Shown one piece after another: positions 22,634 through 58,730 of a stretch of 64,000 nucleotides of DNA. How positions within the stretch are numbered: the first letter of the stretch is position 1; each line of letters opens with the position of its first letter. This DNA is from Maylandia zebra (lineage: Eukaryota > Chordata > Actinopteri > Cichliformes > Cichlidae), in NCBI RefSeq assembly GCF_041146795.1, contig NC_135185.1:12373529-12437528 (forward strand). Direction: 5' to 3'. Under the pieces are notes generated by a model. The model searched no databases, was not told the origin of the DNA, and saw only the letters and a program-made list of their open reading frames with translations. The translations under genes were made by a program, and so were the position numbers.

Positions 22634-22820
22634 GTGCAGGATGGGTGGAGCAGGTGGAGACGATTGTCAGAGGTAATGCGTGACAGAAGGATAGCAGCAG
22701 GTGTGAAAAGGAGAGTTTACAAGATGGCAGTGAGACCTGCTGTGGTGTTTGGTTTGGAGACAGGAGGCCGAGCTGAAGATGATTTTCTTTGGGAGAAACC
22801 GGGATGGACGAGATTAGAAA
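22634..22820 (+). mobile_element. LINE reverse-transcriptase C-terminal fragment
   Basis: The frame from 22634 reads RRLSEVMRDRRIAAGVKRRV, then YKMAVRPAVVFGLET. This matches the C-terminal part of reverse transcriptases in RTE-like non-LTR elements (the conserved VYKTVVRPA...YGLET segment). It frays after 22770. No 5' or 3' end is recognisable. It lies just outside the right end of the hAT-like element. Confidence 0.65.
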
Positions 22821-26012: not shown

Positions 26013-28778
26013 ATGGCTGGAGGGTGGAGGCTGAGCGCTGTGCTGCTGCTGAGTGAGTTTTGTTAAAGAACTTTTAAAAAAGCTTCCTGGAAGCAGAGCG
26101 TGTGTGCTCTTTATGACGAAGGGGAAAGTATTTTTATGTGGTGAATGTCCGTGTGATTGTGAGAGGAGCACGCCGAGGGTGAGATTGCGTCACTCGGTAT
26201 CCAGTCAGCCTTCGACAGCTTTCACTGTCTTTACTTAAATTTACTCGAGCAGTGATCCGATCTTGTTTTACTAACAACCTCGGGAAGGTAACACTAACAT
26301 GTTTCCTGTTGTGTAATCTGCACTGCAGTTATTTCCACGTGTCTGTGGCTGGATTCATCGCCGCGTCCTAAACTGACGATTATCTGTTTTTCTTTAGAGG
26401 AAGTTTAGTTTAGTGTAGCAGAGGAGGTTTCGTTCAGATTTTTACAGTTTGGTTCAGGTTGGTCTAAAGGTCTACACACACACACACACACACTCACTCA
26501 CTCACTCACTCACGTGTGTATGTGTGTGTGTGTGCTTGTTTGACAACAGAAAACCAACACGAGTCACGAGCCAGACGAGTCACAAGATCAGGCCATATTA
26601 CATCATTTCCTAGACATGACACTTCCCTGCGGGCCCACCTTTCTGTTCCAAAACTTGAACATCCGGATATTTGACTTTGTCAGTGATTTAAAAAAAAGAT
26701 TTTAAAGAAATTGAGCTTTGTACAGAGTGCAGGTTTCCCCAAACACTCTGAGTTATTACTGCTATAGTGACCAAGTGACCTTTTTTTATGCGACTGCGTA
26801 GCATTTTTATCAGCTGCCCCTCCTCCCACATGAGACAATGTTTACAAATGTTAACACGCCTGACAAATACACAAAGAAGGGACTCACAAGGATCAGAATG
26901 ACTAACACACTGTAAGCTGACCAAAGCTAAAAGTAAACTAAAACTGATTCACTCAGGTTTAAAAATGGGTCATTCATCTCCACAGGATGTAGTTAATCTG
27001 TTAATTGTTGTTATTTAAGCTCAGCAGAGAGCTCGTCTTTGGCATCAGCTAAAAAAAACAGCTTCATAACAATAACTCTGGCCTCAGACCACAAATATAA
27101 ACTTCCAAACTTTATGCAAACTGCACTCAGTACACTGTTGTATGGATTATGCAAAAACATGCGCCCTGCATAGTGTTTCTTTATTTGATATAAATCAGTT
27201 GCATGTAACTGTCTCACCTGAGCACACTCTTTGCCTCGACGGTTATATTTAAATGTACAACATGCTTAATAACGTTTGCATTTATTTATAAAGCTCACTG
27301 TAATTGGTCAGAATAAAGAAACCTCATCTTTCTGTTCCTAGGTGTGTTCGTGCAGGCTTTGAGCGGGCAGCCAGTGAAGTGCACCGTCTCCCATGATGGT
27401 GGCACGACCACGTACGCCCTCCAGACCGAGTTTTCTGACAAGGATGTGCAGAAGCCCGAGTTCTCGTGGTTTAACATCTCCGTGAGTGACCTCTCACATA
27501 TATGTTCTCTTATATATATCATAAACTTTAAAGGGTTCCATGTAATTTGTATTTATTCGGGATTTTGTCGCATGACAGGCTGATCATTTTTATTTGTTTT
27601 CATTTGCTGACTTTAGAAATACGTCCTCGCCAACCACCTCGATCAAATTGCTGTGGTGATAAGTCGCAGCTTCAACGCTCTCACTATCAGAGCTTGCATC
27701 GAAAACCTTTTCTGTGAAGGACACGTCAACTCCAAGGTACAACCCTCCAAATATGAGAAAAAACTTTATTCCACACTGGAGGGAAAAAACTTGCCTGTGT
27801 TATCGGACGTGTTGTAGTGTGAATAGTGCTGTTTGCTCAAGAGAGGTTGAGTTTACTCTGCAAATCTGCTAATCACAAAATAAATATGCAGGGAAAACAA
27901 TCCTGTCAGCAGTACTTCATCCTAATAACTGTCTCTTTTTGTTTTCCGTAGGGGAAACCTCTCGACTACACGGCCAACTGCACCAGTGAGTATCGCTGCC
28001 CCGTCCTCACATTGTGTCTGGTTTTTGTTTTCATCAATTTTGAAGTAAAATATGAATTTCTCGTGTTCTTTTGCAGCCGTCTGCCCTCCCGTAGCTTTGC
28101 CCGGAGACCAAGGTGAAAAAAACAGTCAGTATTTATGTCACTGTGTCTGTGTGTCACTAAAAGAGACGAAACTGAAATGAAACGTGATTAAATCACAGGA
28201 ATGTTTGGCAGCGTCTGCATGTTTTCACACGTGATGAACAAATACAGGAAAGGGCCTCATTATTAGATAACACATATCTGTAACACCAGTTACAGTGGAG
28301 AGATCAAACTTTGTTACACTAGTACTTTTTACCCGCTCTATTTATTTATGACATCATCTTTAAATAACAGTGTTGCATGCTGTGTGACGTCCCATTCAGG
28401 CTATTTAAGAGAGGTAATAAACTCTGAGAACGTGACTGTTTTTATTAGCTGTGAATAATTTATTTGGCCTTTAATGCAATATTAAATATTATTAAATCTG
28501 TTTTCCTTCTCAGGGAACTCTCATCACTGGATCATCCCTGTCATTGTCATTGTCATAGTGATAGTGATAGCGCTTGCATGCATCATCCTGTGCTGCAGAA
28601 ATGAAAATCTCAGGTAATCTTCTCCCCGTATATAAATCATACAATGACATGCTGTGTCCTCATCTGGCGTGTTCATAACTGCTGCTCTGTTTTCATTGGC
28701 AGGAGATGCCGCTGTGGGCAAACCAGAGGACTTTACATCGTCGGGAAGAAAGAAGCAGCAAAGCCAGAAATTGTGTAG
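26013..28778 (+). CDS. TM-A: unrecognised type I membrane protein, 181 aa
   Basis: Seven exons: 26013-26052, 27342-27481, 27617-27736, 27952-27985, 28077-28112, 28514-28613, 28703-28778. All have GT-AG junctions and sum to 546 nt in one frame. The product has a signal peptide (MAGGWRLSAVLLLSVFVQA), an ectodomain of about 100 residues with five cysteines and N-glycosylation sites NIS and NCT, one transmembrane helix near 129-150, and a tail of about 31 residues with a CC pair and CGQTRGLY. Exon 4 gives DYTANCT, the most conserved motif of the cluster. The start is the only ATG giving a signal peptide in phase with exon 2. I do not recognise the family; a distant immunoglobulin-like fold is conceivable but not shown. 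First of four tandem paralogues. Confidence 0.75.
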
Positions 28779-31571: not shown

Positions 31572-33897
31572 ATGCTTTCAAGTGAGTAAAGAACAAAAGA
31601 CTTTCAGTGTGAATAACCTGAGTGAGTCTGCTGCATTGCGTTGTTTCTGCACTCATTTAAAATGTGTTTCCTGAGTATTTTGCATTCATCGTTTTATTTG
31701 TTTTTCATGTTAGAATGAGTTCAGTTTTCCTTCAAGCACTTAAAGCTCACCTTCACTCCCAGCTTCACTGTTGCTTTGTTTTTGGGTCTTTGCTTCACTT
31801 TTTTTTGTTGAAAAAGAAGAAAGCAAAGTGGCACATTTATGCTATAAATGTGACGTTGCAGCTCATTTAAAGCTGACCAAGCATGTGTCATGACAGAAGT
31901 CAGGCACAAAGATAAGCATCGCTCTCACTGTTTGAACTTGAGCGGTGTGAGCGTTAGTGGTGTTCCTTCCTGTTTACCTGATCGATAATCAAGTCAGAGG
32001 CCGAGGAGACGTCTGCTACAGTGTGTAATGAAGTCAGTGGAGTTGATTGCTGTGACTAATTACTGTAGGCTCCACTCAGATCTGAGCGAGTGATTATTGG
32101 TCTAGAATCACCAGCTGTCAGACCTAATATGAAACCTGTCCAGACAATCCCGTATTTCTTCAAGGGAAGTGAGAATGTATCAAAAATGCCCCGACTGAAA
32201 CTTTAACAGTTATTGGAGAAGAAAAAAGAAGGCGGCACAAAGACTGTCACATGAGAGCTTTTCCTATACTTAAAGAACCCAAAACACCGCTTTTAAGCTT
32301 TATCTTACCTCTAATCTGCAGAGTGTGTTTATTTTTCAAGTTTGGTATATCAGTATACCTGAGCTCGTCACTCCAGTACAGCTGTATGCACGGATTAGGA
32401 CAATGTCTGTTTTTCATACAAGCATAAAGACATTAATGGCGGTTTTGAGTCTTATTAGCTTGTTTGTGTTTACCATAAATATAAAGATTAAATACCAATA
32501 AAAGCACATTTTTGTCCACAGGTAGACTTCAGCTCTCCAGCATACAGGACTTGATGTGCAATGTGTCCCACGGTGGTGGCACAGCCAAATACAACATCCA
32601 GAAGTTTGTTGATTTCATGGATGCAAACAGATCCAAGCTCGAGTTCTCCTGGATCACTGCAGACGTGAGTAGGACGACTCAGAGCAGCTTCCCATTTTAA
32701 GATGTGGTTAACACTATTATCATACATTTAAGGTCAAGCTTTATTCAAATATATCTGTAAGAACATGTGATTTTGTTGTGTGATGAACTGTTTTTTAAAA
32801 TTTCTTTTTATTTTCTGACTTCAGAAAAGTGTCCTCGCAAACCACCTGGACCACGCGAAGCAGGTGATAAGTAGCAGCTGCGACACTCTCGTCACCTCAA
32901 GCTGCTACCCAAACGTTGTCTATGAAGGACATGTCGTCTTAGAGGTATATTAGAGCATAAAAGACAATCTAAGATGTGAGGGTGAAGTTTCTGTGCTTGC
33001 ATGGTTTGTGGGCAAAGTGTTTTCGAAGAACAGTAAGGGCGCAGAGGCTTAGTTTAGGAGTGGGTTCGCTCGCTGTGGAAATCTGATAAACATGCTCAGA
33101 AGTATCGCAACCACATAGTAAACTGATAAACTCTCAGTTAAATTCTCAGATAAACTGAGACATCTAATTGTCTGTTTATTTTCCACAGGGGACGGTTCGA
33201 GATTACACAGCCAATTGCACAAGTTAGTCACCGTCCTCCCACATGAGCAATGTTCTGAATATTTTCTTCTCCTTTTCATATCATTTGAGCTTTTTATGAC
33301 TTTTCTCTCTTTCTTTCACAGCTACCTGCCCTGCAAAAGGTCTGTTTGATGGAAAAGGTGGGACAAAAGTCTTAATCTGCATAACGTATGATTTTTAGAT
33401 CAAAGTTAAAAGGAATTGGTGATTAAGATGCTGGAAATTTTCAACCGCACGCATCTTCTGTTACTTGGAGTAAAATTGCTGCAGCTGCAAAACCACAGAC
33501 AGCTGTCTTTCACTTTCATTCTTACAGCACAACAAAAGTCATGCATCATAGAACTAGAATGCCTAAAAAGGAAAAAGTGTTTTGAGGAAACTGTTTTTGT
33601 GATTTGGTACTAGGGGAGTCCTGCTTGACTGTAATCCCTCCTTTCATGATTGCTGTCATGGTTATCCTGACAGTCCTACTGCTGGCAGGCCTCATGGTGT
33701 GCCTCGTGCGCTCTAGAAGGTATTCTTTTAATTGTGTCAGCATATAAATGCATCACAGTTACCTGACGTGTTTTAAATAGTTATTCTCTTGTCACTGAAG
33801 AAACAATGGTGCACCCGTGATGCAAGACTCCGCACTGCAGAGGAAAGTCCGAATACCAGCTGATGTGGAGACGGGAAATCCGGAGAGCAACGTGTAA
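31572..33897 (+). CDS. TM-B: unrecognised membrane protein, 181 aa, no clear signal peptide
   Basis: Exons 31572-31581 (MLS), 32522-32664, 32825-32944, 33189-33222, 33322-33357, 33614-33719, 33801-33897; 546 nt in one frame with the same intron phases as its paralogues. The ectodomain has five cysteines, glycosylation sites NVS and NCT, and the shared ANHLDH and DYTANCT motifs. Transmembrane helix near 122-144. The tail ends PADVETGNPESNV, sharing ADVETG with TM-C and TM-D. Exon 1 is the weak point. The only in-phase ATG before a good donor gives MLSSRLQLSSIQ, which is not a convincing signal peptide. The true first exon may be further upstream, may be shared with TM-A by splicing, or the copy may be decaying. 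Polyadenylation signals AATAAA at 34051 and 34068. Confidence 0.65.
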
Positions 33898-37147: not shown

Positions 37148-39662
37148 ATGTTTCCTGCTGTCGCGCTCTTATGTGAGTGACCTGTTAATTAATAACAATA
37201 ATTAATATGATTACTATTATTATTTTGTTGCTTGGAAACAAAGCGTGAAAGCTGCATGACAGAGAGGCAAAGATTTGGAGCGAATACATGTTCTGACTGT
37301 TGCGTCACTCTGTGAAGTAGCACTATCGGCTTTCTTTAAGGACATTTGAATATGTTATAATATAATTATTCTTCGCTGTGATTTTTACCGCTTTATTTTA
37401 AAGCTGCTGCACCGGTAGTATTTGTACTCCTACACTATTAGATTTTGTTATATATGCAGTTCGGGGCGGTACTAGTATTCGTAGTAATTTCTGTAGTATT
37501 CTGCATGTATTCTGTATTTATTGCAGAATTAATAGTTCTGTGTTCGCCACAGATGGTTTGGTTTCATCGATTTTGTTTTGCGTGTAAACACGGTTTACAT
37601 CTGCGGCGTAACTCACATATCACACTCACACATGGGGTCACCAGTCACGAGTATTAAAATTTCAGCATTACTGAGGGAATTCCCGGGAGGCGGGACGGGG
37701 CGGGCCAGGGGGTGTGGAGTAGGTTTCCTTGCTGTCACTCGTGTCGGTGCTGTTTGTGTATGTGTGTGAGTAGTGCCACTGACCACGTGACCCAGTATTT
37801 ATGGGACGACACAGCATACTGAAAGTAGTTTGAGTTTCTAACGGGCAGCTTGTAGTAAGCTCACACATCCTGATCTATTCATCTCTTCCTACTGAACCAA
37901 AACATGACTGTTAAACTCAACTTTAACATCTGACACAGAAAATGAAACCGTGACCTACTTTGACCTACGTAGTCCTTGACCTCACAGCATGAGCTTTACC
38001 TTCATTGTCTCGTGCACTAAGTGCTGATAAAATATTCATGTGCATAACTGTAACATGACTTAACTTCAAACTGCATTTTGTTCCCAGGGGTGTTTGTTCA
38101 GCTTTGCAGTGCGCGTGACATGATGTGCACCGTCACTCACGCTGGCAAAAAGACTACATACAACATCTCAGACCTGTCCCCTGATATACGAAACGAGGCT
38201 TCCCGCTGCATGTTTATGTGGTCCAATGCAACCGTAAGTGTGATTAAACCAGAGCAGTTTGATCTGTCCAACATAAGCAGCTATGACATATCAACATGTG
38301 TGCAGTGAGAAGGCATTCGGATCTATTATGACTTACTTACAGTGTGATAGTCTGGCTTGTTTTAATATAATGTGGTTGAATTGTTTTCTTAATTATTTAT
38401 TTAAATTCGATGACTTTAGGATTTTGTGATCGCACACCACGGGGGCCTGTTCCTGCAGCCCGTGATGAGCAGCAGCTTTGGCACACTAATCACCTCCAAA
38501 TGCATCGGCAACGTTAGCTTCACAGCCACTTGCGTGATAAAGGTATGACTCTTTAAAAAATACCTTGTTATGAACTAATTAAGTCATAAAAAAAAACGTT
38601 TAAAAATGCAAACATGTGAGGGAGGAGATTTTCTGAGTTATGTTAAGCATTGTGGGGTGAACAGTGTGTTCATAGGAGGGGTTTAATCTGGAAATGATGA
38701 GATGAATATACTGTGAAAATGTCTGTGTGGGTTCTCAGTCATCCAGGTCATGGTTGTCTGTGGAGCTCAGAAAGAAAGCGAGTGGACGTCTTTAAGTTTA
38801 AAGAACTTAAAGACGTCCACTCGCTTTCTATGCTGTGAAAACAACCTTTAATCACAATCACTGTGTCTTTGTTCTTCATAGCAAAGAGCATATGATTACA
38901 CAGCCAGCTGCACCCGTGAGTATCACCGTGCTAAATTTAATTAAATAAAATTTTTGTCTTTATTTGTTCAGCCCGTGTTAGAGTTTCTGTGTTCATTTAT
39001 AAGTCTAATGTGATTTTCTGATGTTGTTTTACAGCCGTCTGCCCTCCACAAGCTCTGATTGATGACACAGGTAGGCATTTGATACACAGGTAGCGTGCTC
39101 AGGCCTCAGGTGCCTCGCTGTGGCTCATGTTAGCAGAGAACTGATCTTCAGCACCAGTTAGTGAGGAGATCAAACTTTGATAAACTAGTGCTAAACCCAC
39201 TCTGTTTATTTATGACTTCACAGATAAATTAGAGCATTTATTTGTGGCGTTATTATGACTGTAGTGCAACTGCATGCAGATTTCTCAAGACTGGTATTAA
39301 GCTCTGAGAAAATGCCTGTTTTTGTACCTTTGAACAAACTACTTGACCTTTGAGATGATGTTAGATGTTGTTGGCTGTTTGTCTTTTCAGGAATGCCTCC
39401 TTCCCAGATCGGTGTCATTGTAGTAGCTTTCATTGTCCTGCTGGTGCTCGGCCTCGTGTGCTTCCTGTGCTACAAATATAGACTTTGGAGGTATTTATCT
39501 GACTGTAACAGCTGTATTTAATGACATGCTCATCCAATATGGTCTAACTAATGCTCTGTCTTTGATAGTAAATGCTGTGGCCAGACTGGAGGCATCTACC
39601 CTCGTGTGATGTTTAAGAAGGCTCCGCAAGCAAAAGCTGATGTGGAGACAGGAGGAAGATAG
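37148..39662 (+). CDS. TM-C: unrecognised type I membrane protein, 185 aa
   Basis: Exons 37148-37172, 38088-38233, 38420-38542, 38882-38915, 39035-39070, 39391-39490, 39569-39662; 558 nt in one frame, all GT-AG. Signal peptide MFPAVALLWVFVQLCSA. The ectodomain has six cysteines and three glycosylation sites (NIS, NAT, NVS). It includes TTYNISDLS, FMWSNAT, the segment TSKCIGN, and DYTASCT. Transmembrane helix near 127-149. The tail has CCGQTGGIYPRVMFKK, whose YPRV fits the general Yxx-hydrophobic sorting motif, and ends ADVETGGR. Exons 6-7 and the 3' flank are almost identical to TM-D, while exons 2-3 differ strongly. A usable AATAAA is about 1 kb downstream at 40715. Function unknown. Confidence 0.75.
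38773..38829. repeat. Perfect 26-bp inverted repeat, 5-nt loop
   Basis: Left arm 38773-38798 (starts AGAAAGCGAGTGGACGTC), loop 38799-38803, right arm 38804-38829, fully complementary. Located in TM-C intron 3. TM-D has no counterpart at the matching intron. Confidence 0.9.
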
Positions 39663-40340
39663 AGCAGCTTCTCGGTGCACGATAAATCTATAGCCATGCT
39701 TTCTCCGTCCTTTCCCCTGCATTACTTAAGTAGCAGTATGCTTGCATTAATATTTCATCTCTGCGGGTTTGCTTTTCTATATTTTGCCGGGCGGCTTTTT
39801 GGGACAAGACAGTTACAGAATGAAATCCATGTTACAGGATATTAGAGGCTTGATGTGCCAAACTCTAATGTAAGAGTTCTTCCTTCCACACTGTTCAATT
39901 CAATTTTATTTGTATGAAAGCAAAATGACAACAACGGTTTGAGGCTCTTCTGTGGCCTCATCAATGCTAAAAAACGCTGTGACTGATGAAAGGTCATTGA
40001 TTTCTTCCCACACAGACAAACCTCAGCTCAGTGTTAGAAACTGTATCCTGTTACAGCGCTGTTTCATTAATTCCACTTGCCGGTTAGCTGTGAGGGATTG
40101 GTGCACAGGTGAAAAGTTCTCTGGGCTGTGGAAGCTCTCAGACTCTTTGCTGCACCAGTGAGTGCACTTTGAGGACCCAGTAGCATGAATAAATTAACAA
40201 TGACCCCCCTACTTCCAGCCAGGACCCCCATGTTAGTGTTAATGATGTAAACCAGCTGTGGAAGCTCGGAGACTCGTAATGCAGCACCAGGGCGTGCACT
40301 TTCAGTGTCCTATAGCATTACAGCACATAGTATATATGCA
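39239..40340. repeat. Near-identical paralogous segment, TM-C copy
   Basis: From the end of intron 5 (ATTTATTTGTGGCGTTATTA) through exons 6-7 and into the 3' flank, this matches about 57307-58480 with few changes. The main differences are a 50-bp insert here (39892-39942) and an (ATAAT)n expansion in the other copy. Sequence upstream of 39239 diverges abruptly. Confidence 0.85.
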
Positions 40341-40720
40341 TACAACACTATAAAGAATATTATAAATAACTTATTATCCAAATGTTGCTAATATTTTTAT
40401 AATATGTTTATTATTATTTCTATTATATAAGATATATATGTTTATAATAATTATAAATACACTACCTGGGGTTGAGATGCAATAATAAAGTACAGTGTAC
40501 TTGTATTGTAGTACTGGATTGCTTGTGATTATGACCAGTTATTATGAATGTTTTAGTCCTAAATAATGCATCATGAATCCTGCCTTATCAAACGTGTGTG
40601 TGTGTGTGTGTGTGATCAGGCTCACCAAATCATTTTTCTGTATCACGTTTCTTGTATTTGTTTTTGCTGTTGTCACAGTTTCATGTTAATTTTACAGCTA
40701 ATGCACCTGCAAAGAATAAA

Positions 40721-41035: not shown

Positions 41036-41456
41036 GGCTTGAGTCAAGTGAGAAGCTCCTTCAAAATAGGGAATTTATTTGCAATGATAGCAAAAACAAT
41101 TCTACAGTAGTGATACATCCCAATCCCAGGTGCCAGTGGTACTTCTTCCACTCCACTTCAGCTCACTCAGTATTTATAATTGCTCACCACACACAGGTGA
41201 GTTTCGTTGCAGGTAACAAAAAGAACCTCAATCACTAGAGCCAGGTTTCACTGAATGCAGTCATTCAACAGTCATTCCAGACAGGCTTGAGCTGGGAAAC
41301 ATGAAAAATGTTATGGATCTTCATATTGTGGGGCAGGATGAGACAGACAGACACAGGGTGGATCATAGATGAAGACAGGAAGTCGAGGGGCGGATTGTTC
41401 CAAATGCTAATCAATCTGTGATCTATTAGCTGCTGGTGACAGTGGTTCTTCTTCTA
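41036..41456 (-). mobile_element. Ty3/gypsy relic: LTR and integrase C-terminal end
   Basis: On the minus strand, 41456 down to about 41300 reads NPPLDFLSSSMIHP, then MKIHNIFHVSQLKP. This is the C-terminal integrase region seen in vertebrate gypsy elements (the IHPVFHVSQLKP motif). It is followed by an LTR-like stretch with AATAAA that ends CCTGACA at 41036. The matching pol start lies across a 5.47-kb insertion at 46925. The reverse transcriptase, RNase H and most of integrase are absent, so this was an internally deleted copy. Confidence 0.65.
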
Positions 41457-42099
41457 CACTCAGAAAAATTATGGTTCTTAAATGGTTCTTCAGATGTCTT
41501 CATGGTTCTTTAAAGAACCATCATACGTCAAAGAACCTTTTTATTTTGTGGATGGTTCTTCAGCTATTACAAATGGTTCTTTAAAGAACAAAAGGTTCTT
41601 TATCCTTAGCAATCTAAGTTTGATGGTGTAAATGGCATAAATATTTATTCACTATAATGAGGCTGTGAATTATACTGTGTGTTTTCTTTGTGTGCATGTG
41701 TGTGCGAAGGGGAAGGGCGGGATACCTGGCAATTACCCTTTAAGAGAAGATGGTAGGAAACTGAATATTCAAATAAAAGTTAGAAATATTTGCAAACAAT
41801 AGACACAATACACACATTCAAATACTGTACTTTAGTTTTAAATTTTAATAAAGCATTACTATTTTCTACTCCAAGGCATTACTTTTGAGATTATTATATA
41901 TTTTTGAAAATATAGCATAATGATAATACTAGTTATTGTAAACTTTACAAACCACCCAGCAGTATGTAAAGTCAAATTATAAAATACAAGTAAATAACAA
42001 TTGCAGAACAGAATGTCAGTGTAATGGACACAGACTTCGTTTTGACAAAGCACACTGCTTAGGTAAATGATCTGAGTAGTTGTTCATCACTGATCAATT

Positions 42100-42207
42100 T
42101 GTTAATATGTGTTTCGAGCCAAATAAATGACAGGGAGAGAGAGAGTGACGTCAGAACAGGTCATACTATAACCTCCCGGGAGCGGACGGAGGGGGTCAGT
42201 CGTTGGG
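42100..42207 (+). promoter_or_regulatory. Promoter-like CpG stretch
   Basis: Just upstream of a candidate first exon: a full CRE-type GTGACGTCA (about 42146) and a palindromic NRF1-type GCGCATGCGCA (about 42209), in CG-rich sequence that stands out from its AT-rich surroundings. The arrangement is that of a TATA-less vertebrate housekeeping promoter. It lies inside the TIR element. Confidence 0.5.
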
Positions 42208-44493
42208 ATGCGCATGCGCAGACAGAGTGTGCGAGCGGCGGGCCTTGACCTTCGGGGAAAAAAACTCACGGACGGTGACAGCGAAACGGATAACAGTCTT
42301 CAGTACCTGCTGGACTTTGAAGCTGTGGATTCTGGGACTGTTAGAAAAGGTAAAACATTTTCATTAAAACCTTATTACGGTTTTGTTTTTGTTACTCGTC
42401 ATTGTAGCTTGCTGTTGATGTTGTGCTAACAGTAGCGATTAGCTAGATACGTTAGCCGTTGAGGTCAACGCAATTTAGTATCCAACGGTTTTCCTAACAA
42501 AACCACTGTTATAATTAAGTGAAGCTGCTCCCAGCTAATTTGAACCTTTGGCTTCTAAAATATGTGGTTCAATTGCGTGCTGCGTACATAACCTAATGTC
42601 AGCTAGACCGAAATTAAAATGTAATATATTGTTAAAGTCACTAAAATGGCGCCTGAAGCCTGTTGTGACGTGAGCTCTGTGTCTGCTCTAGAAACTCTTG
42701 AAATTCTGTAGATCTGAGCCGTACATTAAATACTCACATGAACCTGTACTTTGAATTCTGTATGAGCTGTATAAAATACAGCTATGCATAAGTGTTTTGA
42801 ATGAATAATTAGATTAGATGACTCTTTATTGTCTAATCGAATTATATAGAAATGAATAGAAATGTGACATGAGAAGGTGTGTCTTTGACTGTTCCTGCAT
42901 AACTTAGTTTCGGACTAGTTGACAAGTTATGCTCCGGTCATTTGATGTTTCCAAGGTAGATGTTCTTTTGTAATATAGTTAATTTTTTTGTATATTTCAT
43001 TTATCCACCATCATACATCATACATACAAGCTAAGAAGAGGTCGTTATACTAACAAGAGGTATCAACGCCGGGCCAAAGTTCAGCACATGGTTAAAGTTT
43101 GTAATCCAGCCAGGGTGTAAATATCACTCAGCAGCCAGAGCTGAAGCAGGTAGCATCAACACATAAATCTACTCTACCCGGCTTAAATCACAAGAGCACC
43201 TCTGACCAAAAAGCTGTAGATTTTTCTTGTTTGCACAAATTAATCCAGATTCACATTAATTGTGTTCACAGCTCCAACAAAATGAGGAAGAGGAGGGGGA
43301 GAAACACAATTAGGTTGAATTACAATTGGATGGAAGGCGAGGACAAGGAGAAGGAAGCTTAGGATGAGGAGGAAGAAAAGCAGCAGGAGCATCTTTAGGG
43401 ATCCCTATGATGTCATTGAGGTTGGTTTCATTAATATGGTCCTCTCACAAAGAACGATGACTTGTTTTAGTTCACCTACTTCCTGTATTAAATAGTGATG
43501 TGCAAAATGTTGTGAAAAACCATGGAGCAGGTACGTATAGTGCATCTGCAGGTAAATGAACATCAAATCTCTAAGACAGACTGAAATTTGTATATTTATC
43601 ACCCTTATGATAAAACCCATGTCAGCCATTGGTTTATGGACTTTGTATTTTGAAGCCTCAACATTTGCTTTCTTGCTGTTGCTATGTTGGGACCATATTA
43701 GGATGAGGGATCAGAATCTGGAGTCATGCACACTATTGTTTCATTTAGTGTGTATCCATAAGATTCGTACAGCAGATCCAAGTTGTGCCTTGAAAACAGG
43801 AAAGTCGTCTGCATAGAGGAGAACTGTAATAGCAGGCTTGTAAAAAGTGAGGCTTTGTGCTCTCGTTTTACTTCTGTCACCCTGTTTTGATGCAGATTTC
43901 ACTTGAAATCAGGCAAGAACTGGACTTATTTTTTTATGTGTTCTTGTGAATTGATTGTGTATCGCATATGTTTGATTTGACTTTCTGCAAGACAACAGTT
44001 GTCCGCTGGCCAAAAAAGTTTTCCAAATACCTCCACGTGATCTAGCCTGGATTTAGAAAAGAATAGCAAAAAAATCTGCACCTCCTGCTTCAGATGCAAT
44101 TTGTGTTTCTGTGTTCAGAGGCAGCGGCGAGAGGGGAGACCTCGGCTCATCCAGCTGGAGAGCCTGACCAGGAGGAGTCGAACATTAACTGAGCTCTTCC
44201 AGGGCACCCTGCAGACTCGGCTGCTGGCATCGGCGAGGGATGACGTGAACGCCAAACTGGAGTCCATCACAGGTCAACTGCAGGTATGCGAGTCAGACCT
44301 TCTGAGGAGGGTTTCACTTTTCTCTTCTTTATAATTGACTCTTTTCTCGATCTCTTTCAGCTCCTTGTCTCAGAGTGGGAGGGATTTGAAGCACAAAGGG
44401 AGGAACTTGTCATTTGGTTGGCTGATATGGATGTCTGCCTGAGTGAGGTTGACCAGCTGACAGGAAACACCAGTGAAAAACTGAAACAACTGC
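42208..44493 (+). pseudogene. Nesprin-like (SYNE) spectrin-repeat gene fragment
   Basis: Candidate first exon 42208-42352 (starts MRMRRQSVRAAGLDLRGKK). Then 44120-44283 reads LTELFQGTLQTRLLASARDD and VNAKLESITGQLQ, and 44361-44493 reads LLVSEWEGFEAQREELVIWL and ADMDVCLSEVDQLTGN. Exons two and three join in phase 0 across a 77-nt GT-AG intron. Trp-Leu spacing and the helix pattern are those of a spectrin repeat, closest by memory to nesprins. The first exon donor does not join exon two in the spectrin frame, so an intermediate exon is missing or the pieces do not form one transcript. No downstream exons exist before the element ends. It is probably a captured genomic fragment. Nesprin identity is recalled, not searched. 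Confidence 0.55.
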
Positions 44494-44523
44494 AGGTGTG
44501 GGCTTGTTTTGATATGACATATA

Positions 44524-46083
44524 CAGGGAGTGCAGAATTATTAGGCAAGTTGTATTTTTGAGGAATATTATTATTGAACAACAACCGTGTTCTCAATGAA
44601 CCCAAAAAACTCATTAATATCAAAGCTGAATGTTTTTGGAAGTAGTTTTTAGTTTGATTTTAGTTTTAGCTATTTTAGGGGGATATCTGTGTGTGCAGGT
44701 GACTATTACTGTGCATAATTATTAGGCAACTTAACAAAAAACAAATATATACCCATTTCAATTATTTATTTTTACCAGTGAAACCAATATAACATCTCCA
44801 CATTCACAAATATACATTTCTGACATTCAAAAACAAAACAAAAACAAATCAGCGACCAATATAGCCACCTTTCTTTGCAAGGACACTCAAAAGCCTGCCA
44901 TCCATGGATTCTGTCAGTGTTTTGATCTGTTCACCATCAACATTGCGTGCAGCAGCAACCACAGCCTCCCAGACACTGTTCAGAGAGGAGTACTGTTTTC
45001 CCTCCTTGTAAATCTCACATTTGATGATGGACCACAGGTTCTCAATGGGGTTCAGATCAGGTGAACAAGGAGGCCATGTCATTAGTTTTTCTTCTTTTAT
45101 ACCCTTTCTTGCCAGCCACGCTGTGGAGTACTTGGACGCGTGTGATGGAGCATTGTCCTGCATGGAAATCATGTTTTTCTTGAAGGATGCAGACTTCTTC
45201 CTGTACCACTGCTTGAAGAAGGTGTCTTCCAGAAACCGGCAGTAGGACTGGGAGTTGAGCTTGACTCCATCCTCAACCCGAAAAGGCCCCACAAGCTCAT
45301 CTTTGATGATACCAGCCCAAACCAGTACTCCACCTCCACCTTGCTGGCGTCTGAGTCGGACTGGAGCTCTCTGGCCTTTACCAATCCAGCCACGGGCCCA
45401 TCCATCTGGCCCATCAAGACTCACTCTCATTTCATCAGTCCATAAAACCTTAGAAAAATCAGTCTTGAGATATTTCTTGGCCCAGTCTTGACGTTTCAGC
45501 TTGTGTGTCTTGTTCAGTGGTGGTCGTCTTTCAGCCTTTCTTACCTTGGCCATGTCTCTGAGTATTGCACACCTTGTGCTTTTGGGCACTCCAGTGATGT
45601 TGCAGCTCTGAAATATGGCCAAACTGGTGGCAAGTGGCATCTTGGCAGCTGCACGCTTGACTTTTCTCAGTTCATGGGCAGTTATTTTGCGCCTTGGTTT
45701 TTCCACACGCTTCTTGCGACCCTGTTGACTATTTTGAATAAAACGCTTGATTGTTCGATAATCACGCTTCAGAAGCTTTGCAATTTTGAGACTGCTGCAT
45801 CCCTCTGCAAGATATCTCACTATTTTTGACTTTTCTGAGCCTGTCAAGTCCTTCTTTTGACCCATTTTGCCAAAGGAAAGGAAGTTGCCTAATAATTATG
45901 CACACCTGATATAGGGTGTTGATGTCATTAGACCACACCCCTTCTCATTACAGAGATGCACATCACCTAATATGCTTAATTGGTAGTAGGCTCTCGAGCC
46001 TATACAGCTTAGAGTAAGACAACATGCATGAAGAGGATGATGTGGACAAAATACTCATTTGCCTAATAATTCTGCACTCCCTG
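44524..46083 (-). mobile_element. Intact Tc1-like DD37E transposon (TRT-like)
   Basis: Both ends begin CAGGGAGTGCAGAATTATTA and are flanked by TA (44522-44523 and 46084-46085). Each arm is about 200 bp with a second, inner copy of the repeat core: 44711-44732 and 45882-45903 are perfect complements of each other and share AATTATTAGGCAA with the outer ends. This is the IR/DR layout of Sleeping Beauty-type elements. The ends and transposase show no visible decay, suggesting a young copy. Inserted in the captured nesprin-like segment. Confidence 0.9.
44849..45865 (-). CDS. Tc1-like transposase, DD37E, 338 aa
   Basis: Uninterrupted frame of full family length. Residues 1-50 form a first paired-type helix-turn-helix (KSKIVRYLAEG, then YRTIKRFI), followed by a basic linker (GRKKRVEKPRRK) with nuclear-localisation character. 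Catalytic residues are visible: D144 in LWTDEMRVSLD, D237 in SMQDNAPSHAS and E275 in SPDLNPIENLW. There are 37 residues between D237 and E275. The glycine-rich box RQQGGGGVLVWAGI is at about 173-186. DD37E Tc1 relatives in vertebrates have been described as TRT; assignment rests on the catalytic spacing. It binds the IR/DR ends and catalyses cut-and-paste at TA. The start is the ATG in a plausible position 18 nt inside the inner right repeat. Confidence 0.93.
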   Translation of the reverse strand: MGQKKDLTGSEKSKIVRYLAEGCSSLKIAKLLKRDYRTIKRFIQNSQQGRKKRVEKPRRKITAHELRKVKRAAAKMPLATSLAIFQSCNITGVPKSTRCAILRDMAKVRKAERRPPLNKTHKLKRQDWAKKYLKTDFSKVLWTDEMRVSLDGPDGWARGWIGKGQRAPVRLRRQQGGGGVLVWAGIIKDELVGPFRVEDGVKLNSQSYCRFLEDTFFKQWYRKKSASFKKNMISMQDNAPSHASKYSTAWLARKGIKEEKLMTWPPCSPDLNPIENLWSIIKCEIYKEGKQYSSLNSVWEAVVAAARNVDGEQIKTLTESMDGRLLSVLAKKGGYIGR

Positions 46084-46600
46084 TATTTGATATGAAACAT
46101 ACGTCAGAGACATTATCCTAAACTGGACTAACAAAGGACCATGAGTACAACATGAAACGTACATTACATAGCGTAATGCTAAAGTTCATTGATCATTTTA
46201 ATCATAAACTTGTTGTTGAAATATTTTTACTGAACATGCAAACATCTGCTGATGAAAATGTGTTGATTTATTGGTCTGTTATGAAGCTATTGCTATTTCT
46301 AATGTGTTTTATCACTTTCTGATGTTTTATTAATTAAACAATACATGTACTGTTGTGTTATCTGTAGCTATAGTATTTATATATATATTAGTATAGCAAA
46401 TATATTTAATTATTACTGTTTAAAACACTAATATGTGACATGTATTAGTAGTGATGTTGTGCTGAGGGTTAAAATGCCTTTTTGTCTTTTGGTAACTACA
46501 AAATGACAATAAACCATTAATATATGTCTATGCTGTGCTCGTATTTATTTTTACCCTACTCAAATTCAATTTATGATGCATTTTATTTTGAAAGATTTAA

Positions 46601-46924
46601 AATGTTTTTTTAAAGAACCACTCAAAAAAGGTTGTTTAAAATGGTTATTTTAAAGAACCATTTGAAGGACCTTTTTAAAAATGGTTCTTTAAAGAACCAT
46701 TTTTAAAAAGGTTCTTTGAAAAACCATTAAAGGTGCCCCAAAGAACCATTTCTTGATGGTTCTTTGGGGCACCTTTAAAGGTTCTTCAATGAACCACTGA
46801 AAGAAATGGTTCTTCAAAGAACCATTGTTTGAAAGGTTCTTTGTGGCACCAAAAAAGGTTCTTCTATGGCATCAGTCTAAAGAACCACTTTTGGTTCCAG
46901 TTGGCACCTTTATTTTTCTGAGTG
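46601..46924. repeat. Palindrome-rich right end of the TIR element
   Basis: Many inverted and direct copies of GGTTCTTTAAAGAACC. Includes a perfect 22-bp stem with an 8-nt loop: arms 46727-46748 and 46757-46778, loop TTTCTTGA. The left end of the element (41463-41620) carries the same word family. Confidence 0.85.
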
Positions 46925-48170
46925 TACGGTCCTTCTCCCTTACAAAAGCTCCGTCAGGGTCAAAAATATTTTTCCATTGCCTCCCTTTCATGTTTGGAAA
47001 GGCCGTAAAGGCGACTCTTAGGTGATGGAACACCAAGGAGCAGGTCTATTCCCCAATCGTCAGGGCGATGAGGAGGGAGAGAAAGAGCGAACTCTAAACA
47101 CTTCTGCAAGTTCGTGATACAGAAAAGGGACTGAGGACAGATCAGGTAACTCGACCAGAAATGACCGGGTTAAACTGGAACAGAGAGATCTGTGGTTCTT
47201 ACACAGTTTTGCCCAGTCTATATTTGGATTGTGTGTGCTCAACCAGGGTGCTTCGTGCATCAAACATGAACTAACTAATCTTTCCACATTTTCACCAGAC
47301 AGGGACAATGACATGGACTGAGTGTGATGTGTGATATCCAGGAAATGGGGACCATTCAAAGCAGAAACTTGTCCCTGTTCAGGAAGGGTGACAAGTGGGA
47401 TGTTAAGCTCTTTTGCTAGCACTTGATCAATAAAGCTCTGTTCAGCCTAGGAGTCTCTTAAGGTTTTCAAACAGTGAGTGAGAGCATTAATGATGAATTT
47501 GGCTGAAACCATGAGTCTTGGTGGGGAGGAGTTATCATTCATCTTGCCTGCCAGTCTCCCCACACTTACACCCGATCTTTTGTTCGCACAGGGCAGGTGC
47601 CAACAAAACGTCCCTTCTTCAGAAGGTGAGAGGTGCACAGGCTGTTTCTCGTTGTATTCAGACCCACCTCTCCCCCGGCTAGGCTCCTCACCACATGGAG
47701 GAGAGCCCTCCAAAGGGGTGAGGGAGTTGTAGTTGTTCACTGGGAGAAACCTTTCGTCACTCAGCCAGGATACTTTGTTTCTCTGAACAAATTTCTTCCA
47801 CTGAAAACACAACCTCAAGAAGAAGATTTCCATCTTGCATCAGCATGCATCAAGACACTTCTTATATGCATATTCACCCACATGGTTATCCGACCAGATA
47901 CACATGGAAACAAGAGCATAAAGTGAATTACGGAGATCCTTGGCAGCCAGCTCCTATCTTAAGTTTTCTTCTTCTTTGGTCTGGCTTTGTCAAACAAAAT
48001 CCCAAAGTCTATAGAAAAACTGGCCACACTCCTCCTACCTTGCTTCAGGTGAAACATCTTATACACCGCCACGTCACAGTTGGATCCTTTGTCAAAAAGA
48101 TTCTTGAATTTGCGGATAAACCCCTCAAAACAGATTCAGGTTAGTTTTGAAACCACCTGTGCCCACTTTA
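46925..48170 (-). mobile_element. Ty3/gypsy relic: gag end, protease region, pol start
   Basis: On the minus strand, gag-like sequence near 48100-47990 (SNCDVAVYKMFHLKQGRRS) leads to a decayed zinc-knuckle-like region (HLPCANKRSGVSVGR, about 47600). Next comes a retropepsin region (AEQSFIDQVLAKELNIPL) and then the pre-RT block ([20 protein letters not shown] and [15 protein letters not shown], about 47060-46965). A stop splits the protease region and a frameshift lies near 47085. Open frames 47060-47422 and 47447-47833 are pieces of this relic, not genes. Confidence 0.75.
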
Positions 48171-48212: not shown

Positions 48213-48932
48213 TTATCCGAGGTCGGGTCGCGGGGGTAGCAGCCTAAGCAAAGAGGTCCAGACCTCCCTCTCCCCAGCCACCTCCTCCAGCTTGTCCGGG
48301 GGAATACCAAGGCGTTCCCAGGCCAGCCGAGAGATATAATCTCTCCAGCGTGTCCTGGGTCTGCCCCGGGGCCTCCTCCCGGTGGGACATGCCTGGAACA
48401 CCTCGCCCAGGAGGCGCCCAGGGGGCATCCTTGCCAGATGCCCGAACCACCTCAGCTGGCTCCTTTCGATGTGGAGCAGCAGCTGCTCTACTCTAAGCCC
48501 CTCCCGGATGGCCGAACTTCTCACCCTATCTCTAAGGGAGAGGCCAGCCACCCTTCGGAGGAAGCTCATTTCCGCCGCTTGTATCCGCGATCTCGTTCTT
48601 TCGGTCACTACCCACAGCTCGTGGCCATAGGTGAGGGTAGGGACGTAGATCGACCGGTAAATTGAGAGCTTCGCTTTTACACTCAGCTCCCTCTTCACCA
48701 CGACTGACCGGTGCAGCGTCCGCATTACTGCAGCCGCAGCCCCAATCCGTCTGTCGATCTCCAGCTCCCTTCTCCCATCACTCGCGAACAAGACCCCGAG
48801 ATACTTGAACTCCTCCACTTGGGGCAGGAACTCATCCCCGACCCGGAGTGGGCACTCCACCCTTTTCCGGCCTGCCGGAGGTGTGCGTTGAAGATCTCGC
48901 GGACTGGGGCCTCTGCTAGACGTTCCCAGCAC
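48213..48932 (-). pseudogene. LINE reverse-transcriptase C-terminal remnant
   Basis: 239-codon frame: [20 protein letters not shown], then YRSIYVPTLTYGHELWV, LRWFGHLARMPPGRLLGEVF, CPTGRRPRGRPRTRWRDYIS and the end LLRLLPPRPDLG. This is the thumb/C-terminal part of the RT in fish LINEs. The catalytic FADD-type region is missing, so this copy cannot reverse transcribe. It overlaps the endonuclease frame because the deletion joined different frames. Confidence 0.85.
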
Positions 48933-49990
48933 ACCCTCACTACGCGTTTAGGTGCACCAGGTCTGTCCAGCGTCCTCCCCCGCCACCTGATCCAACTCAC
49001 CACCAGGTGGTGATCAGTTGACAGCTCAGCCCCTCTCTTTACCCGAGTGTCCAGAACATATGGTCGCAGGTCTGGTGATACGATTACAAAATCGATCATC
49101 GACCTACGGCCTAGAGCATCCTGGTGCCACGTGCACTTATGGACACTCTTATGTTCGAACAGGGTGTTCGTTATGGCCAAACTGTGATTAGCACAGAAGT
49201 CCAATAACAAAGCACCGCTCGGGTTCAGATCAGGGAGGCCGTTCCTCCCAATCACGCCCCTCCAGGTCTCGCTGTCGTTACCCACGTGAGCATTGAAGTC
49301 TCCCAGCAGGACAACAGAGTCTCCAGGTGGAGCACCTTCCAGCACCCCCCCCAGGGACTCTAAGAAGGCTGGGTACTCCGAACTGCCACTCGGCGCATAA
49401 GCGCAGATGACAGTCAGGACCCGTTCCCCGACCCTAAGGCGCAGGGAACAAACCCTCTCGTCCACCGGGAAAAACCCCAACGTACCGGCAGCAAGCCGAG
49501 GGGATATAAGAATACCCACCCCAGCCCGCCGCCTCTCACCAGGGGCAACTCCAGACTGAGACAGAGTCCAGCCCCTCTCCAGGAGACTGGTTCCAGAGCC
49601 CAGACAATGCGTAGAGGTGAGCCCAACTATATCTAGCCGGTACCTCTCAACCTCACGCACCAACTCAGGCTCCTTCCCCACCAGAGAGGTGACATTCCAT
49701 GTCCCTATTGCCAGTCTTGGCAGCCGGGGGTCGGTCCGCCAGGGCCTCCGCTCCTGGCCGCCACCCGGCTCACAATGCACCCGACCCCTATGGCGCCTCC
49801 TGCGGGTGGTGGGCCTGCGGGAGGATGGGCCCATGTCTCCTCTTCGGGCTGTGCCCGGCCGGGCCCCATGGACTAAGGCCCGGCCACCAGACGCTCGCCC
49901 TCGGGCACCCTCCCCGGGCCTGGCTCCAGGGCGGGGCCCCGGTAACCCTATCCCGGGCAGGGTAAACTGTTCCCTCGATATTCTTTTCAT
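48725..49990 (-). pseudogene. LINE apurinic endonuclease ORF, truncated by deletion
   Basis: 421-codon frame. After a Pro/Arg-rich leader it carries an exonuclease-endonuclease-phosphatase domain: [47 protein letters not shown] (metal-binding NDF-type motif), [19 protein letters not shown] and [11 protein letters not shown] (catalytic SDH-type end). At about 48880 the sequence jumps to reverse-transcriptase C-terminal sequence in another frame, so the last 50 codons are out-of-frame shadow. It would nick target DNA in an intact element. Confidence 0.85.
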
Positions 49991-50150
49991 GGGGGTCTTC
50001 TGAATCGCTCTTTGTCTGGTCCCTCACCCAGGACCAGTTTGCCATGGGAGACCCTACCAGGGGGCAAAAGCCCCCAGACAACATAGCCCCTGGGATCCCT
50101 GGGACACACAAACCCCTCCACCACGATAAGGTAGCGATTCAAGGAGGAGT

Positions 50151-53832: not shown

Positions 53833-56800
53833 ATGGGGATGGTGTCGGCAGCCATGGGGATAAGTGAGTAACTTCATCAGATTATTTGTTAAAGGGTTGA
53901 CTGGAAACAAACAAACACTGTAACCTGTAGGGCAGAGAGGAAATTGTGTTTATGTGTTTATCAGTAATCCGCGCACCTACTCAGCTGTTTTATTCCGGTT
54001 TGTGTCACCGGCACGTCAAAACTTTTAGCCTGTAAACGCGTTCGAGTAATCGGCAGTAAATATTCATGCGAGCCCTTCCTGAAGTTGTAGTTGTTTCTTT
54101 GTGGTTTTCATTTCCATGGCTAAAATCTCACAAAGTCTCCGAGACACGTGAGGAGTTTAAAGTCATGGCACGCGAGGGATCTTTAACACCCAACCACTCA
54201 CCCACACCCGGAAAGGAGCGCAGAGCATAGTGTGTTAATCTGATTAATGTCAATGCTGTAATCTGCAAAGTTATTCTGTTAGTTCTGAAGTTCGTTGTGT
54301 CTAAACTTCAGGTATTGTCTGTAAACATCGAACCTCCAGAGATTCATGAAAAAGAAAATAACCCATTTTCACGTGCACAATTATATTTTTATTTTAACTT
54401 TAAAACACTTTTTGTTGTCAGGTATTTTACTTCATCTTGGTGGTGCACACAAGTGCAACGTCACTCAGCGTGATCATGAGACAACATATAACATCCCAGA
54501 TCTGTCTTATGCTCAGGGTCCAAGTGATTCCAGCTGCACATTCACCTGGTCCAACGCATCTGTAAGTAAACCGTACCAGAGCAGCTTCACGTATTCTGAT
54601 GTGTAACAGTTACTACCAAGTTCATTTACGTGCAGCCTGGCTTGTTGTGATAGAATGTGGAGGGTTTGTGTTTCAGCAAACCGTGGTTGCAACTCACGTT
54701 AATAAAATGGAGCCGGTGACGATGAGCAGATTTGGCAAACTTGTCTCTTCCAAATGCATCGGCAACATGATCTTCAGTGGAACCTGCGTGACTGAGGTAT
54801 CACTGTTTCCATGGCCAACAGTGGTCAGCATAATTAGAAACTCTAGTTTTGATGGGGGAGGTTTAGTTAACAACAGAAATATAAACATGCTGAAATACTT
54901 AGAATACAACAATAAAAGTATTAATTTGCAGAGGTGTGGACTCGAGTCACATGACTTGGACTCGAGTCAGACTCGAGTCATTAATTTTATGACTTTAGAC
55001 TTGACTTGAAAAAATGTTCTAAGACTTGTGACTTGACTTGGACTTTTACACCAATGACTTGGGACTTGAATTGGACTTGAACCGGTTTACTTGAAAAGAC
55101 TTGATATTTTACCCCAAATATAAAATTTAACATGCATATTATATAGAGATTGAAAATGTGACGTCATTCACGGGTAGAACCGCAAAGGATTCTGGGAACT
55201 CGTGGCAAGCGGTACTAGCGCACGCAGGCTTTCAATTAAAATCAGTTACACAGCGATAAAAAGAAACACAAAAAATGGCAAGAAGCCGTTGTATTATTAA
55301 CTGCAATAGCCGGTCGCATGACAGCCACGGGAAGCCGACGGGTAAAGAGATCGGTTGTTATCGGATTACGTCGTTGAAGAGAAATTGTTCGAGCCATGTT
55401 TCCGAAGTAACAAAGAGGCGACGGATGGCCTGGATTGCAGCCATTCAAAGACAAAATATAACGTCCCAGAACCCTCCAGCTCACAGGTTAGTCTGCTCCA
55501 AGCATTTACACAAAGGTCAGTCTGCTGTTGTAGTTAATGCGTCATTTTCATAACATAATTAGTGATATAGGTTACAAGCAAGTCTGGCGCTGAACAGAAA
55601 TGGTCGCGCTATGCTCCTTTATTTATTGTGCATAAATAGTGAATTGTCCTGACACAATATTGCGTTTCGCTTCTGTTATTATGGTACATTGACAAAAACA
55701 TATACTTTTATTCACAGGATAAAACAGGTTTTTTGTATCACTAATTGCCCAGTACGATTACAGCATACAGTATTATTGTCACTGCTACATTTCTGTGATG
55801 CTACCAGAAATTATTTCCACTACTAATTAATTACCGTTGAGCTCAAAGGTCCTATTAATAAACGGTTAAGGAATGTGTATTTATGGCGACAATTTGTGAG
55901 GCTGGTAAACTTATGATACGTACGATGGTCTTTACTTTCTACTCGGTGCATTTCAAGGTCCTGCACCCATCCGTCGGTAAACTGTACCTGGACTTGTTGC
56001 AGTGACCTGAAGTTACTAAACTTCACGAGTGTGTGCACTCACTCCAAGAACCGTATGATTATAAATATGCATATAAATATGCTACGGGCAGGGATAGCTC
56101 AGTAGGTAAAGTGGTCGCCCCATGATCGGAAGGTCGGCGGTTCGAATCCACTTAACGGCTACCCTGAGCAAGGTACCGTCCCTACACACTGCTCCCCGGG
56201 CGCCTGCTTAGTGGGCTGCCCACCGCTTCACTGAGTGAATGGGTCAAATGCAGAGAAAAACAAGTAATTTCCCCATGGGGATCAATAAAGTATCCATTAT
56301 TATTATTATTATTATTACGATGAGATAGCTGACTTCATCTAACTAGCAAATGTTGTCCAGGCTACGTTGGTGATACAGTTTTTTTTAATGTGTATGATAT
56401 TTTTGTCATGCGATTTTAAAGCCGGTCCTACAACCGCATCCAAGAATAACATGCAGCTTATCTCAGAACAGTCGGTGAAAATTATTCTAGGAGCTAGGTT
56501 TAATTGAGCTGCATTTTAAAGAGGTGCAATTTCACAATTTGTGTATATTTTCTAAGTTCACTATTTTGTCATGTGTTGAGAAAAACACAGATTTTAAAAT
56601 TACATGGTCTAATATTTACATTTAGCATATAACTGCAACATTATTTTTTCGTTGTTTTTTTTTTTTAAAGACTCGAAAGGACTTGAAATTCAAAGTTTCA
56701 GACTTGTGACTTGACTCGGACTTTTACACCAGTGACTTGAGACTCGACTCTGACTTGCCTGACATTACTTGAGACTTGACTTGAGACTTGAGGATAAAGA

Positions 56801-57734
56801 CTTGAGACTTACTTGAGACTTGCAAAACAATGACTTGGTCCCACCTCTGTTAATTTGAACACGCTGTTCTGCCAACCCCCAGAAAACATTTAATCATTAT
56901 CCCGGTGTCTTTATTTTTTTCTTCATAGGGGACACCAAAGGACTATATGGCCAGCTGCACTGGTGAGTATCACTAACAGACTGAACACGTTTGACGAGCA
57001 TTATTCTGAATATCTTCTTCTCTTATTTGCATTCTGTCATGTTTTTCCTCCATCTTTTAAGTCTAATGTGAACATCTAATATTCTTTTACAGTCACCTGC
57101 CTGCCAGAAAAAGAAGAAACAATAGGAGACAAAGGTGAAATAAAAATATCATTTTTTTTATATAGTCCAAAGTCTCTGGATCTCTATTAGAGACAATACA
57201 GCGGGGTTACGTTAGAAGAATCTTTGGTAATTTTGATACTTGATGTTTACATGGAAATCCTAGCATCATGGATATTTACAAGAAATGGCCTCGCTGTGGA
57301 GCGTTACAGCATTTATTTGTGGCGTTATTATGACTGTAGTGCAACTGCATGCAGATTTCTCAAGACTGGTATTAAGCTCTGAGAAAATGCCTGTTTTTGT
57401 ACCTTTGAACAAACTACTTGACCTTTGAGATGATGTTAGATGTTGTTGGCTGTTTGTCTTTTCAGGAGTGCCTCCTTCCCAGATCGGTGTCATTGCAGCA
57501 GCTTTCATTGTCCTGCTGATCGGCCTTGTGTGCTTCCTGTGCTACCAATTTAGACTTTGGAGGTATCTATCTGACTGTAACAGCTGTATTTAATGACATG
57601 CTCATCCAACATGGTCTAACTAATGCTCTGTCTTTGATAGTAAATGCTGTGGCCAGACTGGAGGCATCTACCCTCGTGTGATGTTTAAGAAGGCTCCGCA
57701 AGCAAAAGCTGATGTGGAGACAGGAGGAGGATAG
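53833..57734 (+). CDS. TM-D: unrecognised type I membrane protein, 185 aa
   Basis: Exons 53833-53863, 54422-54561, 54677-54796, 56929-56962, 57093-57134, 57466-57562, 57641-57734; 558 nt in one frame, same phases as its paralogues. Signal peptide MGMVSAAMGISILLHLGG. The ectodomain has six cysteines and glycosylation sites NVT and NAS, with TTYNIPDLS, FTWSNAS, the segment SSKCIGN, and DYMASCT. Exon 5 is longer than in the others and acidic (PEKEETIGDK). Transmembrane helix near 128-149. The tail is CCGQTGGIYPRVMFKK to ADVETGGG, nearly the same as TM-C. Intron 3 carries a 1.9-kb hAT-like insertion that leaves the exons intact. ATTAAA near 58725. Function unknown. Confidence 0.75.
55147..56065 (+). 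mobile_element. THAP-domain transposase fragment, copy 2
   Basis: The frame from 55275 starts MARSRCIINCNSRSHDSHGK and continues with KRRRMAWIAAIQRQN and HRLVCSKHLHKG. All THAP C2CH landmarks are present: C-x3-C, the conserved tryptophan and C-x2-H. A donor-like site follows at 55516 (AAAG then GTCAGT), so this looks like a first exon plus intron. THAP domains of P-element-type transposases bind DNA. The rest of the gene is missing. About 0.9 kb matches 20485-21395. Confidence 0.65.
56085..56317 (+). mobile_element. tRNA-derived SINE
   Basis: A-box region GATAGCTCAGTAGGTAAAGT, B-box GGTTCGAATCC (56139-56149), tRNA-unrelated body with CTGAGCAAGGTACCGTCCCT, and tail ATCAATAAAGTATCC with (ATT)n. 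Same family as the fragment at 29098-29245. Not a functional tRNA gene. Confidence 0.85.
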
Positions 57735-58480
57735 AGCAGCTTCTCGGTGCACGATAAATCTATAGCCATGCTTTCTCCGTCCTTTCCCCTGCATTACTTA
57801 AGTAGCAGTATGCTTGCATTAATATATCATCTCTGCGGGTTTGCTTTTCTATATTTTGCCGGGCGGCTTTTTGGGACAAGACAGTTACAGCATGAAATCC
57901 ATGTTACAGGATATTAGAGGCTTGATGTGCCAAACTCTAATGTAAGAGTTCCTCCTTTTGAGGAGTTTGAGGCTCTTCTGTGGCCTCATCAATGCTAAAA
58001 AACGCTGTGACTGATGAAAGGTCATTGATTTCTTCCCACACAGACAAACCTCAGCTCAGTGTTAGAAACTGTATCCTGTTACAGCGTTGATCCCAGTGTT
58101 GATTGTAATTCCACTAGCTGTGAGCGATTGGTGCACAGGTGAAAATTTCTCTGGGAAATTGTTAATGGACTGATTCTTATATAGCGCCTTTCTACTCTCC
58201 TGGAGTACTCAAAGCGCTATGGGCTGTGGAAGCTCTCAGACTCTTTGCTGCAATAATGCTAATAATATAATATAATATAATATAATATAATATAATATAA
58301 TATAATATAATATAATATAATATAATATAATAACAATGATCCCCCCTACTTCCAGCCAGATCCCCCATGTTAGGGTTAATGATGTAAACCAGCTGTGGAA
58401 GCTCGGAGACTCGTAATGCAGCACCAGGGCGTGCACTTTCAGTGTCCTATAGCATTACAGCACATAGTACATATGCATAC
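57307..58480. repeat. Near-identical paralogous segment, TM-D copy
   Basis: Counterpart of 39239-40340, covering the end of intron 5, exons 6-7, 3' UTR and flank. Differs by lacking the 50-bp insert, by a SINE-tail fragment (about 58160-58222) and by an (ATAAT)n run. Confidence 0.85.
58256..58333. repeat. (ATAAT)n minisatellite
   Basis: About 15 units of the pentamer ATAAT in the 3' flank of TM-D. The matching TM-C flank has only a short AT-rich stretch. Confidence 0.9.
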
Positions 58481-58730
58481 AACACTATAAATAGCTTATT
58501 ATCTAAATGCTGCAAATATTTTTCTAATGTGGATGTTTCTTTATTTTTGCTTACTTATTTGTACTGTTTTCTTATTATATAACGTATATGTCATTAATTT
58601 AAAGGATTCCTCCTGTAATGTGTACTCTGTACCTGCATGGCCAGTCACTGTGAGTGTTTTTGTCCCAGATTATCCTTCTTGCTCTGTTTTTCTGCTTTAT
58701 GTTCCCCTATTATGCTGAAAATGGATTAAA

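Follow-up and report, generated by a model that had tools for sequence, protein, structure and literature searches.

The window analyzed here is a 64,000-nucleotide stretch of the Maylandia zebra genome. It carries a tandem array of small genes, represented by four related exon copies near 27.3, 32.5, 38.1, and 54.4 kb that share 34 to 44% identity (tblastn). Two downstream stretches of the array, 39229 to 40406 and 57304 to 58531, are 89 to 91% identical. Near 28.5 kb, copy 1 includes a stretch that is hydrophobic and membrane-like, and Pfam gave no match for the array genes in the plus-strand frames of 22.0 to 28.9 kb and 37.5 to 39.4 kb. Copies of this array flank a repeat-rich gap, and within it lies the element that is our subject, at 41457 to 46924 (Table 1). 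A preliminary description of this DNA had read the interval as a TIR element that captured a nesprin-like spectrin-repeat gene fragment together with its intron. That description overlooked the flanking gene array, a nested Tc1-like element, a CpG-rich stretch, and clusters of subterminal repeats.

Table 1. Features of the element at 41457 to 46924 and of its surroundings (window coordinates)
Feature	Position	Strand	Basis
Tandem gene array, four related exon copies	27317-27580, 32485-32697, 38054-38305, 54394-54579	+	tblastn
Gypsy-type integrase C-terminal domain (SH3_Tf2-1), left flank	41280..41366	-	Pfam
TA, left target site	41455..41456	.	sequence
Left TIR, CACTCAGAAAAAT	41457..41469	+	inverted-repeat count
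Left arm, AAGAACC/GGTTCTT subterminal repeats (2 and 6 copies)	41457..41640	+	motif count
CpG-rich promoter-like stretch, TGACGTCA at 42146, TGCGCATGCGCA at 42209	42101..42500	+	composition, motif scan
Possible first exon, ATG to GT donor	42208..42349	+	sequence, splice signals
Spectrin-like exon 2, 165 nt, 55 codons, predicted one long helix	44119..44283	+	open frame, structure prediction
77-nt GT-AG intron	44284..44360	+	sequence
Spectrin-like exon 3, 135 nt, 45 codons, predicted one long helix, GT donor after	44361..44495	+	open frame, structure prediction
Nested Tc1-like transposon flanked by TA, repeats doubled at both ends	44524..46083	-	repeat comparison
Open Tc1-like transposase frame, 338 aa from first methionine, DDE_3	44849..45895	-	Pfam
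Right arm, AAGAACC/GGTTCTT subterminal repeats (6 and 7 copies)	46591..46924	-	motif count
Right TIR	46912..46924	-	inverted-repeat count
TA, right target site	46925..46926	.	sequence

The interval is bounded by an exact 13-bp inverted repeat, CACTCAGAAAAAT, with TA directly outside each end, just as the preliminary description had stated. With TA included, the two 21-nt arms are 90% complementary. In a count of exact inverted 13-mers that have TA on the outer side of each arm and a spacing of 0.5 to 8 kb, the window gave three, compared with none from 30 first-order Markov sequences matched to it in length and dinucleotide makeup. The three pairs were the ends of the 41457 to 46924 element and two pairs belonging to the nested Tc1-like element. 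This null is a lenient one: when the TA condition was dropped, there were 258 inverted pairs in the window against a Markov mean of 12.7. No further copy of the 13-mer end was present within the window, and there were 0 copies of the end sequence in viral contigs, a search from which records of the window's own genome may have been excluded. An exact-text search of the literature did not find the end sequence in any paper.

Inside the ends, the motif AAGAACC/GGTTCTT is concentrated in the left 184 bp and the right 334 bp. It is absent in both orientations (0/0) from the 4,950 bp between the arms (41641 to 46590) and occurs 9 times in the other 58.5 kb of the window. The perfect TIR is only 13 bp long, the arms are of unequal length, and the alignment between them is patchy, so that the element has short TIRs, with arms rich in repeats, and not long ones. 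As for the family of the carrier, a TA target is present, as in Tc1/mariner elements, and the sole transposase found is that of the nested element: a six-frame Pfam scan of the whole interval found no other. We also considered CACTA/EnSpm elements, which make a 3-bp target duplication and have CACT(A/G) ends. Here the flanks are CTA and TAC, with no 3-bp direct repeat, and the end reads CACTC; this family was rejected. Of the four papers retrieved for the subterminal motif together with terms for fish and transposons, none dealt with such a family by title and abstract start, and two broader searches had nothing on the element among the matches listed, again judged by titles and abstract starts.

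The nested Tc1-like element begins 28 bp past exon 3 and makes up 1.56 of the 5.47 kb of the interval. It has the TA ends, the DDE_3 transposase (E = 2.6e-15), and the doubled repeats at each end of a Tc1/mariner element; it is an ordinary secondary insertion and not the carrier. Because its transposase frame is uninterrupted over 338 amino acids, the insertion is probably young. With the Tc1-like element subtracted, the unit is about 3.9 kb long and the carried part about 3.4 kb (4.95 kb with it).

The exons described earlier, with their 77-nt GT-AG intron, were borne out by our analysis. Exons 2 and 3 are both open and have good consensus splice signals. Each was predicted, with no alignment used, to form a single long helix, with mean pLDDT values of 87.7 for exon 2 and 96.1 for exon 3. 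Long helices are what would be expected of spectrin-repeat segments, without being specific to them. That the intron was kept indicates uptake at the DNA level, provided that the intron is that of the parent gene. No RNA families or tRNAs were found.

The identity of the exons was approached through the translated peptide. Joined, exons 2 and 3 matched a single Pfam family, Spectrin_SYNE1 (PF25034), at an E value of 0.017 to 0.02 and 15 bits against a cutoff of 35; neither exon matched anything by itself. Spectrin families appeared in 0 of 10 controls (nine shuffles and one reversal of the joined exons), while 4 of the 10 matched unrelated families at E values of 0.066 to 0.14 (best, 0.066). 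A hand-rearranged peptide matched Prefoldin_2 at an E value of 0.0097, and thus an E value of 0.02 is by itself not strong. Among PDB sequences there was no spectrin match for the exon peptide, at cutoffs up to E = 1 or up to E = 10. In viral contigs, 15 stretches fit the pattern of the spectrin peptide and 0 were confirmed as relatives, again with records of the window's own genome possibly excluded. On sequence grounds, the exons are likely of the spectrin family, and a nesprin origin is plausible. Support for the nesprin identity proposed earlier is weak: it consists of the one Pfam match, which is far below the cutoff, and the PDB search did not add a spectrin to it.

Upstream of the exons, the stretch at 42101 to 42500 has a CpG observed/expected ratio of 1.11 at 47% GC. 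It contains TGACGTCA and TGCGCATGCGCA, which we take to be CRE- and NRF1-type sites, respectively. TGCGCATGCGCA occurs only once in the window, and TGACGTCA recurs at 55159. This is not the richest CpG stretch of the window: by count, several other 400-bp stretches equal or exceed it, with those near 22.0, 48.5, 49.6, 50.9, and 55.1 kb ranking in the top 25. The highest CpG observed/expected ratio (about 1.2 to 1.4 in 400-bp windows) is at 21901 to 22650, a segment that also holds a 17-bp perfect tandem repeat at 22227 to 22280. An ATG frame opens at 42208 within the promoter-like stretch and runs to a GT donor after 42349. It ends in phase 1 and exon 2 begins in phase 0, so that the two cannot be joined in frame; this segment may therefore be a 5' untranslated exon, or it may be unrelated.

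The element was said to have gypsy sequence on both flanks. On the left, we found a minus-strand match to SH3_Tf2-1 (E = 1.1e-5; in a second scan, 2.3e-6 and 28.1 bits against a cutoff of 30), which we take to be the end of a gypsy-type integrase. On the right, by contrast, the resemblance is by eye: in several frames, the sequence looks like the beginning of a reverse transcriptase of the gypsy type, but the right flank from 46.9 to 47.8 kb gave no Pfam match to a retroelement protein and no credible PDB match. If the right flank is indeed the start of a reverse transcriptase, the gypsy copy would also be without its middle. No paralogous empty site from the tandem duplicates was found in the window, because the duplicate of the left side stops at about 40406/58531, before the gypsy sequence begins.

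Among the outcomes that would refute capture, the preliminary description named the continuation of the true SYNE gene through this locus. Since the element sits in a gap between copies of another gene array, a SYNE gene running through is disfavored, although this is not proof. No spectrin was found when the plus strand was scanned with Pfam from 32.5 kb up to position 64,000. That negative is uninformative, since exons 2 and 3 of the element itself, being in different frames, also escaped a scan of this kind.

MULEs usually have long TIRs and a 9- to 10-bp target. Plant Pack-MULEs and Pack-TYPE elements resemble the present element in being non-autonomous TIR elements that took up pieces of host genes as DNA; the element here differs in its TA target, its short TIR, and its animal host. 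Turmoil-1 of Caenorhabditis elegans is likewise a DNA transposon with pieces of protein-coding host genes, but there those pieces lie within the inverted terminal repeats and their parents are known (rsp-2 and cpg-3) (PMC2572040). The closest comparison is with animal Pack-TIRs, which, in the survey by Tan et al. (2021; PMC8277862), are defined by TIR ends and a target duplication around a host-derived segment, with retrocopies excluded. The element at 41457 to 46924 has two TIRs of one element and a target-site duplication (13 bp, TA/TA), a 2-bp TA duplication being by itself a weak criterion that arises by chance about 1 time in 16. Its 77-nt GT-AG intron, kept between two open exons, sets it apart from a retrocopy. 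The survey lists 370 Pack-TIRs, 13.4% exonic, which come from 55 out of 100 animal genomes; zebrafish has 8, frog 25, and alligator 38. Thus, the earlier statement that such capture is rarely described in vertebrates does not hold; gene capture by a TIR element is already known there, and the phenomenon is not new. What differs is the size and the content. The captured segments in the same source have a median length of 224 bp, the largest human case being 3,585 bp, whereas the segment here is about 3.4 kb without the Tc1-like element (4.95 kb with it) and holds a promoter-like stretch and two spliced exons as candidate host cargo. When nesprin was searched together with Pack-TIR terms, only this survey was retrieved, and it does not mention nesprin.

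The best reading of the sequence is a single TIR insertion around non-transposon DNA with spliced exons. In this the preliminary description stands; the capture of a host gene fragment by the transposon, which it also proposed, is likely rather than proven. We think that the unit is probably a single TIR DNA transposon from a family with a TA target, loaded with about 3.4 kb of what is most likely host DNA. It sits within retrotransposon (gypsy-type) debris. We infer that the enclosed non-transposon DNA came from the host and was taken up as DNA with its intron, as a cargo that would comprise a CpG-rich promoter-like stretch and, from a gene of the spectrin family, nesprin-like or other, two exons coding for spectrin repeats. 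The Tc1-like element jumped into the carried segment afterwards. Any present-day role would be that of a promoter-and-exon donor for chimeric transcripts.

As to how the cargo was taken up, we infer that the likeliest route was gap filling, in which a break within the element is repaired with a switch of template. Our preference for gap filling over uptake before transposition comes only from the published base rate, in that single-copy animal Pack-TIRs are mostly ascribed to gap filling in PMC8277862; nothing in the window tells the two apart. Alternatively, an ancestral element could have captured the cargo and then moved, already loaded, into the gypsy debris. More loaded copies would then exist, as a multicopy Pack-TIR and a mobile promoter-exon cassette. 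The intact TIRs of the loaded unit and the TA on both sides agree with this order of events. However, gap filling would equally leave intact ends and TA, and multicopy cases make up 1.4% of the animal Pack-TIRs in that survey; we consider this history unlikely. We regard it as quite unlikely that a complete CpG promoter and splice-ready spectrin exons travel, in several genomic copies, on a transposing element of fish, as a mobile promoter-and-exon cassette seeding chimeric nesprin-domain transcripts.

It is distinctly improbable that the interior belongs to the transposon itself or consists of chance frames, with the helical exons representing an accessory gene or a coincidence and not host nesprin. 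The weak Pfam score, the lack of a PDB match, and the start exon that is not in frame would all suit such an origin. Against it, exons 2 and 3 follow one another as open frames, have consensus splice sites, and are both predicted to be helical; the CpG-rich stretch with its NRF1- and CRE-type sites resembles a host promoter; and the only family matched by the joined exons is the one that had been predicted beforehand. We give very little credence to the idea that two independent insertions of one short TIR family flank a piece of a real SYNE gene or of a segmental duplicate of such a gene, since, even if that family could be short and common, the outermost ends are oppositely oriented with TA outside both, gypsy debris lies on at least one side, and the adjoining genes belong to another tandem array (the plus-strand Pfam scan without spectrin counts for little here, having missed the element's own exons too).

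Capture of host DNA by a single TIR transposon would have wider interest if the parent gene were found. For a TIR element of a vertebrate, the gene capture would then be unusually long, multiexon, and promoter bearing, and it would provide a clear test case for gap filling versus transposition-coupled capture, and another for the spread of working promoters by such elements.

Several other repeats were observed elsewhere in the window. A dispersed repeat is present at 20486 to 21394 and 55143 to 56069, with 89% identity over 0.93 kb; its second copy overlaps a weak THAP-domain match at about 55290 to 55514 (E = 0.0079, below the Pfam cutoff). A MITE-like inverted repeat at 3751 to 4282 has 45-nt arms that are 91% complementary and 442 nt apart. 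On the minus strand, 48213 to 50023 is likely the remnant of a non-LTR retrotransposon, with an endonuclease domain at an E value of 7.1e-9.
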